Of a stretch of 64,000 nucleotides of DNA, positions 56,730-60,506 are shown in pieces; positions within the stretch are counted from its first letter, which is position 1; each line of letters starts with the position of its first letter. The notes under the pieces are model-generated. The model was given only the letters and a program-made list of their open reading frames with translations. It made no database searches and was not told where the DNA came from. The DNA comes from an uncultured Gammaproteobacteria bacterium (GTDB lineage: Bacteria; Pseudomonadota; Gammaproteobacteria; Pseudomonadales; Pseudohongiellaceae). Where the stretch lies: positions 1 through 64,000 of the forward strand of contig CAJWGN010000003.1 in the NCBI GenBank assembly GCA_913031035.1. Direction: 5' to 3'. The translations under genes were made by a program, and so were the position numbers.

Positions 56730-57389
56730 ATGGAATTACGAATAAACAATGAAGCGCCAAATTTTACGGCTGAGACCACACAGGGGAAAATAGATTTCCA
56801 TGAGTGGCTTGGTGATCAATGGGGTCTATTATTCTCTCATCCAAAAGACTTCACTCCAGTATGTACGACAGAGCTTGGTTATATGGCAGGTCTGGAAAAA
56901 GAGTTTGCTAGCCGTAATTGTAAAGTCATTGGTCTGAGCGTTGATGCTGTGGAAAATCATGCGCTCTGGGCAAAAGATATCGAGGAAACTCAAGGCCATG
57001 CGGTAAAATTTCCTATGATTGGTGACAGCGAGCTAGTCGTGGCTAAACTCTATAATATGCTTCCTGCCGATGAGCCTGGCACTAGCTCAGAAAGAACGGC
57101 GGCGAATAATGCCACGGTACGTTCAGTTTTTATCATTGGCCCTGACAAGGCCATCAAATTAATGATGACTTACCCAATGACCACGGGCAGAAATTTCGAT
57201 GAAATTCTGCGAGTTTTAGATTCGATGCAGTTAACGGCCAAACACAAAGTGGCTACCCCAGTTAACTGGAAAAATGGAGAAGACGTGATTATTGTTCCCT
57301 CGGTGTCTAATGAAGAGGCAAAAGACATGTTTCCAGATGGCTGGGATACGATCAAACCTTATCTGAGGAAGGTTGCGCAGCCAGATTAA
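56730..57389 (+). CDS. Peroxiredoxin, 1-Cys/Prx6-type
   Basis: WGLLFSHPKDFTPVCTTELGYMAGLEKEFASRNCKVIGLSVDAVENHALWAKDI; C-terminal FPDGWDTIKPYLR. Confidence 0.94.
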   Translation: MELRINNEAPNFTAETTQGKIDFHEWLGDQWGLLFSHPKDFTPVCTTELGYMAGLEKEFASRNCKVIGLSVDAVENHALWAKDIEETQGHAVKFPMIGDSELVVAKLYNMLPADEPGTSSERTAANNATVRSVFIIGPDKAIKLMMTYPMTTGRNFDEILRVLDSMQLTAKHKVATPVNWKNGEDVIIVPSVSNEEAKDMFPDGWDTIKPYLRKVAQPD

Positions 57390-57464: not shown

Positions 57465-59510
57465 TTAAGGGAGTTTAAATGCAACTAGTTCAGGTGTGTG
57501 TAGCCTATCCCCTATGGCAACAACGATATATTGTTCACCCTCGAACATATAGCTAATTGGTGCCCCGGTTGTTCCAGCCTCCAATTCGACCTCCCATTCA
57601 ATATCACCGTTTGACTTGTTGTAAGCCCTGAACATTGGGCCGCCGCTGTTAGTAGCAATTTCGATAGGCATTCCCACAGGGACTCGCCCTCCCGGCCTCA
57701 GATTAGTTTGGCCTTCACCTATGAACAGCAAGGTTTTAGTTAGCAGTGGAGATGGTCGGCCAGGTACCCCAAGTTTATCCAAATTCAAGTGAGCGATGGC
57801 AGGATTATCGACAGGGCCAACACCATTGGCAACCATCCAGCTATGCTCACCTGTATTCATGTTGATTGCGGTGATGCGCCCATAGGGTGGCTTAAAAAGA
57901 GGTAGGCCCTGGGGGCCGCCTATCCATCGACGTGCGCCTTTGACAAAGGCCAAGTCTGTAACCTCTGGGTCGCCAGGGAGTACGTCTGCTACAAAAGCTG
58001 AAGTAATCGAAGGAATGTAGAGATAGCCGGTTTCCGGGTCAAAGGCAGCTCCTTGGACGTCTGCTCCCCCCTGCGAACCTGGTAACTGAATAGTGCCTTG
58101 GGTCCCATTGTCAGTGCGTATAGATGGGGGGGTAAATAGTGGCCCGGTAACATAGTTGCTAAAAATCTCTAAAGCCTCAGCTCGGAGCTCCGGGGTAAAA
58201 TCGATGAGGTTCTCTTTAAGGGCTCCCTGTAAATCGAATGGGGCGGGCTTGCTGGGAAATGGCTGGGTAGGGGAAGTCACCTCGCCGGGAACAGTCGATT
58301 GAGGCACCTGCGTTTCAACCATATCCCAAACCGGCTCGCCGGTTTCACGGTTGAGCACATAGGCAAAAGCCTGCTTGGTAATCTGGGTCAGCGCCTTAAT
58401 GTCTTCACCATCGACTTTAATGTCCATCAGTATAGGTGCAGCAGGAGGATCATAGTCCCACAGGCCATGATGGACGGTTTGGAAATGCCAGACCCGCTCT
58501 CCAGTTACAGCGTTGACAGCGACAATACTTTGACTGAATAAGTTGTCGCCAATTCGATGTCCCCCGTACATGTCATTGGTGGAGGAAGATATTGGCATAT
58601 AAACAAGACCTAGCTCTTCGTCGGCGCTAAACAGCGCCCAGACCGGCGCGTGGCCGGTATAGGACCAAGACCTGTCTTGCCAAGTGTCGGTGCCAAACTG
58701 TCCTGCTTGGGGAATGGTATTGTAGGTCCAGCGCAATTCTCCGGTGCGCACGTCAAAGGCGTGCACGTCACCGCGAAAGGCTTCTTTACTATCAAAGCTA
58801 TCGGACATCGCTTGGCCGATGATCACCACGTCACGAATAACCATGGGTACACCGCCCCAGCGAAAGCGTTCAAACTCCTCTGGCATTAGCTGGAGATCAA
58901 CTCTGCCTTGGTTGCCAAATCTAAGATCGGCATCTCCGGTTTTTGCATCTAATGCGTAAAGATAGGTGCCTCGCTGGCTAAAAATTCTAGAGTTGTCTCC
59001 GTCGCTCCAAAAGGCAGCGCCGCGGGTTGGAGCCCCTGGTAAGCCCTCCAGTCCTTCGGGAGGTTGCTGTACCCACAAGGTTTCTCCAGAGCCGGGATTG
59101 AAAGCTTCCACTAAGCCGACGCCGTTAGGAATATAGCCAATACCGTCATTTATAATTGCGGCGGCAACGTAGTTACTGGAGAACCTTTGATTTGGATTCA
59201 GGTCAGTATAAAAGGAATCTAGAGCAGGCCGTTGCCAAGCGATTTGCAGTTGGTCAATATTTGATGCGTTGATTTGATCAAGGGGCGTATATTTTGTACT
59301 GCCAATGTCGCCGCCGTAGGCTTGCCACTCACCTGCGATAGCGCCGGTTTGAGCTAAAAGGTTGCTTGGATTAGCTAGCAGAAGCATTAGCAGCAGTAAT
59401 GACGAAAGTTTTGCCAGCGCCCGGGTTCCATTAAGAGTTGAGAGCTGGGCCGAGCGTGGGGTTAAGTCTCGGATTAAGTGCCGGGCCACGTGAGGTAGAG
59501 CTAATTCCAT
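57465..59510 (-). CDS. PQQ-dependent dehydrogenase (membrane glucose dehydrogenase-like, without N-terminal TM bundle)
   Basis: GEWQAYGGDIGSTKYTPLDQINASNIDQLQIAW; TVHHGLWDYDPPAAPILMDI; STNDMYGGHR; 681 aa. Confidence 0.9.
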   Translation of the reverse strand: MELALPHVARHLIRDLTPRSAQLSTLNGTRALAKLSSLLLLMLLLANPSNLLAQTGAIAGEWQAYGGDIGSTKYTPLDQINASNIDQLQIAWQRPALDSFYTDLNPNQRFSSNYVAAAIINDGIGYIPNGVGLVEAFNPGSGETLWVQQPPEGLEGLPGAPTRGAAFWSDGDNSRIFSQRGTYLYALDAKTGDADLRFGNQGRVDLQLMPEEFERFRWGGVPMVIRDVVIIGQAMSDSFDSKEAFRGDVHAFDVRTGELRWTYNTIPQAGQFGTDTWQDRSWSYTGHAPVWALFSADEELGLVYMPISSSTNDMYGGHRIGDNLFSQSIVAVNAVTGERVWHFQTVHHGLWDYDPPAAPILMDIKVDGEDIKALTQITKQAFAYVLNRETGEPVWDMVETQVPQSTVPGEVTSPTQPFPSKPAPFDLQGALKENLIDFTPELRAEALEIFSNYVTGPLFTPPSIRTDNGTQGTIQLPGSQGGADVQGAAFDPETGYLYIPSITSAFVADVLPGDPEVTDLAFVKGARRWIGGPQGLPLFKPPYGRITAINMNTGEHSWMVANGVGPVDNPAIAHLNLDKLGVPGRPSPLLTKTLLFIGEGQTNLRPGGRVPVGMPIEIATNSGGPMFRAYNKSNGDIEWEVELEAGTTGAPISYMFEGEQYIVVAIGDRLHTPELVAFKLP

Positions 59511-59921: not shown

Positions 59922-60389
59922 TTAATTTAGCCGAGTTCTCAAATGCTTTATCACGGCGCCGATGATAGGCAGGTTTTCATACACCACGGCGCCTAAATCA
60001 AAGTAATCCCGCTGATAATAGATTTTTCCGTTGCGGGTTTTAAGGTAGGTTGAACCTTCTACGCGGATTGTTTTTCCACCGGCCAATTTTTTATGGGTGA
60101 AAATCTGTGTCCAACTGATAAACACATCTGTGTCGCCGGCCAGCGTTTTGTGTGATTTGAACCTAAAATTATTTATATTCGAAAACGTACCGTCAATATG
60201 ACTCATTAGAGCGGTTTTGCCTTGAATACCCTGCATTGGATCCTCAAAGTAAATGTCTTCCGCGTACAACGCTGCGACTTTACTGGAGTCCCCCTCACCG
60301 AGCGATTGATAAGCACTTGCCAAGCTCTGCGACAGTTGATTGGCATTGGCTAATTCGGTTGCAGGCGTTGTTGTTAGGCTGGGATGCAT
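59922..60389 (-). CDS. Nuclear transport factor 2 / SnoaL-like protein
   Basis: ASAYQSLGEGDSSKVAALYAEDIYFEDPMQGIQGKTALMSHIDGTFSNI; ATG at 60389 favoured (ORF track uses TTG at 60413). Confidence 0.85.
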   Translation of the reverse strand: MHPSLTTTPATELANANQLSQSLASAYQSLGEGDSSKVAALYAEDIYFEDPMQGIQGKTALMSHIDGTFSNINNFRFKSHKTLAGDTDVFISWTQIFTHKKLAGGKTIRVEGSTYLKTRNGKIYYQRDYFDLGAVVYENLPIIGAVIKHLRTRLN

Positions 60390-60425
60390 AGATGAAAAGC
60401 CGTACTCATTCAAGGGTGTCTTAAA

Positions 60426-60453
60426 TTAACGGCTTCTGCTAATGTTTGGATCA
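60426..60453 (-). promoter_or_regulatory. ECF-type promoter TGATCC-N16-CGTTAA driving the SnoaL-like gene
   Basis: Minus strand TGATCCAAACATTAGCAGAAGCCGTTAA. Confidence 0.7.
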
Positions 60454-60478
60454 CTTATAAATAAAGCACATATTCTTG

Positions 60479-60506
60479 TGATCCGAGCCAGCAGTTATCA
60501 CGTTAG
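60479..60506 (+). promoter_or_regulatory. ECF-type promoter TGATCC-N16-CGTTAG driving the sigma/anti-sigma operon
   Basis: TGATCCGAGCCAGCAGTTATCACGTTAG; same spacing as the divergent site. Confidence 0.7.

Follow-up and report, generated by a model that had tools for sequence, protein, structure and literature searches.

A conserved divergent pair of predicted RpoE-ChrR-type promoters between a sigma-chrR operon and a SnoaL-like gene in an uncultured gammaproteobacterium

In the first 64,000 nucleotides of contig CAJWGN010000003.1 (assembly GCA_913031035.1), from an uncultured member of the Pseudohongiellaceae, a gene for an extracytoplasmic function (ECF) sigma factor and the adjoining chrR gene face away from a gene for a SnoaL-like protein on the opposite strand. 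The intergenic region of this stretch, hereafter the window, carries the motif TGATCC-N16-CGTTA on both strands, and the two copies together form an inverted repeat. This raises the question of whether the motifs are two promoters, a single operator, or neither. From the sequence and its conservation, we consider it highly probable that they are two independent, outward-facing promoters of the ECF11 (RpoE-ChrR) group, read by the adjacent sigma factor under restraint by ChrR, such that the sigma gene would be autoregulated and the SnoaL-like gene co-activated.

Inspection of the window confirms that TGATCC, exactly 16 nt, and CGTTA occur on each strand (minus 60453-60427, plus 60479-60505), as the initial annotation had reported. 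The sites and strands given there stand, while the outer ends, placed at 60426 and 60506, each overshoot the sites by a single base. The inverted repeat GGATCAC/GTGATCC that it derived from the two -35 elements is likewise present. The window has no exact match besides these two sites, and a wider pattern (TGATCC-N15..17-CGTWA) finds two matches against a mean of 0.12 in shuffled sequence, a count reached in none of the shuffles. In first-order Markov simulations single exact matches arose at a rate of 0.013 per 64 kb, and a divergent pair in 0 of 150 runs. A weight matrix was built from 51 related sites, the two in the window among them; it scores each of these two at 20.3, near its maximum, and no other place in the window above 11.8.

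For comparison, relatives of this sigma gene were taken from public genomes, mostly of uncultured Pseudohongiella, OM182 and other gammaproteobacteria. Upstream sequence was available at 32 of the loci, the window among them, and these were counted; owing to shared ancestry the counts do not represent independent events. TGATCY-N16-CGTW lies upstream of the sigma ATG in all 32 loci, and 9 or 10 nt separate CGTW from the ATG. The presence of the mirror site depends on the SnoaL gene: it is found in 22/22 loci with a SnoaL side (the gene itself is seen in 21, the contig of L031 ending before it) and in none of the ten loci lacking SnoaL. Nineteen of the 22 mirror sites have an N16 spacer and the other three N17. 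Across the related loci, 789 kb of strand sequence in all, the N16 pattern was found 51 times, against a single occurrence of the reversed control. Each of the 51 is a promoter of the sigma side (32) or the SnoaL side (19), leaving no exact match off-site. The same arrangement recurs in most further genomes of the genus. This conservation of position and spacing, together with the published RpoE-ChrR motif, bears out the earlier assignment of the sites to the TGATCC type of ECF promoter used by ChrR-partnered sigma factors; that the mirror site tracks the SnoaL gene supports the accompanying proposal of autoregulation with SnoaL co-activation.

Some observations weigh against reading the sites as ECF11 promoters. 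Their -10 element is CGTT where published examples have CGTA, the motif lacks genome-wide enrichment (TGATCY-N16-CGTW gives 21 matches, most of them inside genes, against 21 for its reversed control), and the genome is a draft, 92% complete in 307 contigs. CGTT, which is the -10 in 17/32 sigma-side loci, is a variant of the published CGTA. The lack of genome-wide over-representation also speaks for the sites being chance matches, or promoters of a housekeeping or other sigma factor. We regard this as extremely improbable, given that sequence, spacing and position are kept across the 32 loci, that related loci contain no exact matches elsewhere, and that the sites agree with characterised ECF11 promoters.

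Could the inverted repeat instead be the operator of a dimeric transcription factor, the -10-like boxes being incidental? A perfect 7-bp inverted repeat between divergent genes would suit such a protein. Among the relatives, however, the gap between the two -35 boxes drifts from 12 to 86 bp while each box keeps its 16-nt distance from CGTW (17 nt for the three mirror sites mentioned above). Moreover, the ten loci without SnoaL retain one arm only, and the only regulator genes seen at the locus are those of the sigma/ChrR pair. On account of the variable arm spacing we rejected the operator, which we judge very unlikely; the repeat is a by-product of back-to-back -35 boxes and has no operator role.

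The neighbouring genes encode proteins of the matching kind. The best match of the sigma factor in the PDB is Rhodobacter sphaeroides SigE (2q1z, E 4.6e-30), at 108 bits versus 42 for the next. The chrR gene overlaps the sigma gene by 4 nt, and its product scores 169.8 bits against NCBIfam TIGR02451 (cut-off 124.5). All eight candidate metal ligands are kept in ChrR (H8, H33, C37 and C40; H154, H156, E160 and H190), the HxxxCxxC and HxHxxxE...H motifs lining up with the ligands of 2z2s. A sigma factor of the R. sphaeroides RpoE kind, an adjacent ChrR with its ligands and a self promoter of the TGATCC-N16-CGTA type together place the system, by prediction, in ECF11. On the other side, the SnoaL-like gene is intact, its product being 41-51% identical to same-genus orthologues. 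Its start is probably the ATG at 60389, since the ATG of the relatives agrees; a longer version from a TTG at 60413 is less likely. Beyond SnoaL lie genes for a pyrroloquinoline quinone (PQQ)-dependent dehydrogenase and a peroxiredoxin, and in the window neither is preceded by a match to the motif. Coordinates are collected in Table 1.

Table 1. Promoter elements and genes at the sigma-chrR/SnoaL locus (positions in the window).
Feature	Position	Strand	Basis or remark
-35 TGATCC, putative SnoaL-side promoter (G-extended: GTGATCC)	60448..60453	-	sequence; kept in 22/22 related SnoaL-side loci
-10 CGTTA, putative SnoaL-side promoter	60427..60431	-	16 nt from -35
-35 TGATCC, putative sigma-chrR promoter	60479..60484	+	found in 32/32 related loci
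-10 CGTTA, putative sigma-chrR promoter	60501..60505	+	16 nt from -35; CGTT to sigma ATG, 9 nt
Inverted repeat GGATCAC-N23-GTGATCC (arms 60448-60454 and 60478-60484)	60448..60484	.	25 bp between -35 boxes
ECF sigma factor gene, ECF11/RpoE-like, 221 amino acids	60514..61179	+	Pfam Sigma70_r2/r4; PDB relative 2q1z
chrR, zinc-binding cupin anti-sigma factor, 234 amino acids	61176..61880	+	TIGR02451; alignment to 2z2s
SnoaL/NTF2-like gene, 155 amino acids from ATG 60389	59922..60389	-	PF12680, 1e-14
PQQ-dependent dehydrogenase gene	57465-59510		next gene after SnoaL here
1-Cys-type peroxiredoxin gene	56730-57389		just beyond SnoaL

Under the ECF11 reading, ChrR would hold the sigma factor in check until released by an inducing signal, whereupon sigma-RNA polymerase would initiate in both directions. 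Rightward transcription of sigma-chrR would provide positive feedback along with fresh inhibitor, and leftward initiation would transcribe the SnoaL-like gene. Autoregulation and SnoaL co-activation are well supported; recognition by this particular sigma factor, the points at which transcription begins and the nature of the inducing signal we infer.

Comparison with characterised systems indicates that the arrangement is already known, because RpoE promoters in R. sphaeroides have been published for both rpoEchrR and the neighbouring RSP_1091-1087 operon (PMC3818230), and in Azospirillum the genes diverge likewise, each strand carrying TGATCC-N16-CGTA. The R. sphaeroides locus shares the paired promoters and the homologous sigma factor and ChrR with the window, which appears to carry a divergent ECF11 pair of the same type; the neighbouring operon there includes ufaD and ufaO, whereas here only the SnoaL-like gene remains. 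In Shewanella, promoters of RpoE2-ChrR are TGATCC-N16-CGTA with mapped starts, and S. oneidensis (SO_1986/SO_1985) resembles our locus in autoregulation, the sigma/chrR overlap and the promoter type, but has its core operon elsewhere in the genome and CGTA rather than CGTT as -10. We dropped the Lon gene SO_1987 of Shewanella as a divergent precedent, Lon being co-directional with sigma in Pseudoalteromonas and Vibrio. The consensus in Pseudomonas syringae (PSPTO_1043/1042), also TGATCC-N16-CGTA, is backed by chromatin immunoprecipitation sequencing and quantitative reverse-transcription PCR. That system is autoregulated and is induced by singlet oxygen and tert-butyl hydroperoxide, but no divergent SnoaL-type gene is reported at the locus and the regulon is largely P. 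syringae-specific. The window is a confirmed, well-conserved case of the known arrangement, and a published alphaproteobacterial organisation is now placed in a marine gammaproteobacterial clade, where it is strictly conserved. Within this clade the N16 spacing and the 9-10 nt from -10 to ATG are fixed and the distance between the promoters drifts. What is new here is chiefly that the furan-fatty-acid genes have probably been lost next to an intact ChrR, that SnoaL is retained in their absence, and that the sigma ATG follows the -10 at a short, fixed distance.

What lies behind the SnoaL gene elsewhere? In about 15 relatives, SnoaL is followed by genes for a short-chain dehydrogenase/reductase (SDR), a flavin adenine dinucleotide (FAD) oxidoreductase, a DUF1365 protein, a cyclopropane-fatty-acid-synthase-like protein and a chalcone-isomerase-like protein, and the same order is annotated in Pseudoalteromonas and Salinivibrio. 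The FAD, DUF1365 and synthase genes are the counterparts of UfaD, UfaO and UfaM in the furan-fatty-acid pathway, and the genes of the SnoaL-headed operon constitute the core RpoE-ChrR regulon. SnoaL in the window is the orthologue of the first gene of this divergent operon. Same-genus loci with SnoaL-SDR-FAD-DUF1365-CfaS (e.g. L008, L011 and L018) have the same two promoters in the same orientation, with orthologous sigma, ChrR and SnoaL, and retain the whole operon, in contrast to this genome. Neither DUF1365 (UfaO) nor a relative of UfaD was found in this 92% draft. The sole close synthase (UfaM-like) is broken, its pieces lying in different frames beside unrelated genes on another contig (G000:C39:4558-5460, L146); these fragments are a remnant of the lost pathway. 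As the assembly is a draft, the absence of the furan-fatty-acid genes is likely rather than certain. Of 35 near-complete genus genomes, full ChrR and DUF1365 occur together in 20, both are missing from nine, six carry ChrR only, and DUF1365 never occurs by itself; ChrR without DUF1365 occurs in five near-complete genomes other than ours. The core set of ufaD, ufaO, ufaM and photolyase is not reproduced here, which concerns regulon content and does not define the sigma group.

With the operon behind SnoaL gone, one may ask whether only the sigma-side promoter still works, the SnoaL-side site being a relic. We find this unlikely: the site is perfect and the gene it faces intact, SnoaL and its mirror site are also kept in four other genomes that lack DUF1365 (L013, L014, L017 and L021), and spacers are better conserved on the SnoaL side than on the sigma side. 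Two working promoters remain the preferred reading. The loss also bears on the inducing signal. In R. sphaeroides, the breakdown of ChrR in response to singlet oxygen requires ufaD and ufaO, a requirement that organic peroxide does not share. As UfaD and UfaO were not found, a singlet-oxygen response would lack its usual signal path here, and the initial annotation's assignment of the system to singlet oxygen is weakened to an assumption. We tentatively suggest, at somewhat less than even odds, that sigma-ChrR runs without the furan-fatty-acid pathway and responds to a trigger outside the singlet-oxygen route that depends on UfaD/UfaO, such as organic peroxide, with SnoaL as an effector in its own right, retained under the mirror promoter once its operon partners had gone. 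A natural loss of these genes beside an intact ChrR offers a test of whether the lipids are essential to the signal, and SnoaL retained without them is a lead to the role of the SnoaL protein in the core regulon.

The short distance to the sigma ATG has a further implication. Transcription from ECF promoters usually starts 6-9 nt after the -10 CGTW; with 9-10 nt to the ATG, such a start would fall 0-4 nt before it, so that the sigma mRNA is predicted to be leaderless or nearly so. Changes in sigma codons 2-18 fall mostly at third positions and least at second, unevenly in some groups, and for this reason translation appears to include the N-terminus. Vibrio and Pseudoalteromonas have a longer distance from -10 to ATG, on which ground we rejected the idea that ECF11 genes in general have a (near-)leaderless start; in Azospirillum (L110) the distance is 8 nt.

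Does the regulon extend beyond the locus? It had been proposed that the motif would define it, but since the genome-wide matches do not exceed the reversed control, we abandoned motif-only delineation in favour of conservation. A second divergent TGATCC-N16-CGTW pair lies between genes for a SOUL heme-binding protein and a fasciclin-domain protein (G000:C4:62644-62763; L081:14645-14764), with an NAD-dependent epimerase-like gene downstream of the SOUL gene. The fasciclin-side site occurs upstream of 8/9 same-genus orthologues, this genome included, and the pair looks real. The RpoE-ChrR regulon includes fasciclin genes both in A. brasilense (PMC10949492) and, as RSP_1409, in R. sphaeroides (PMC7074977). 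Three photolyase-family genes are present in the genome; we rejected them as targets, the stretches read containing no exact motif match and one weak, mismatched site near one gene.

Two smaller observations concern the sites themselves. The 16-nt spacer on the SnoaL side (here 60432-60447) fits AAAC-N2-TA-N-CAGA in many relatives, and between-group likeness of spacers is 0.50 on this side versus 0.28 on the sigma side; a further factor bound at this spacer is possible. A near-perfect promoter elsewhere in the genome (G000:C7:20725-20750; L062:1501-1526) has a matrix score of 20.3 and no clear gene for several hundred bases, only a 49-amino-acid open reading frame lying behind it; this site may give rise to a small RNA or a small protein.
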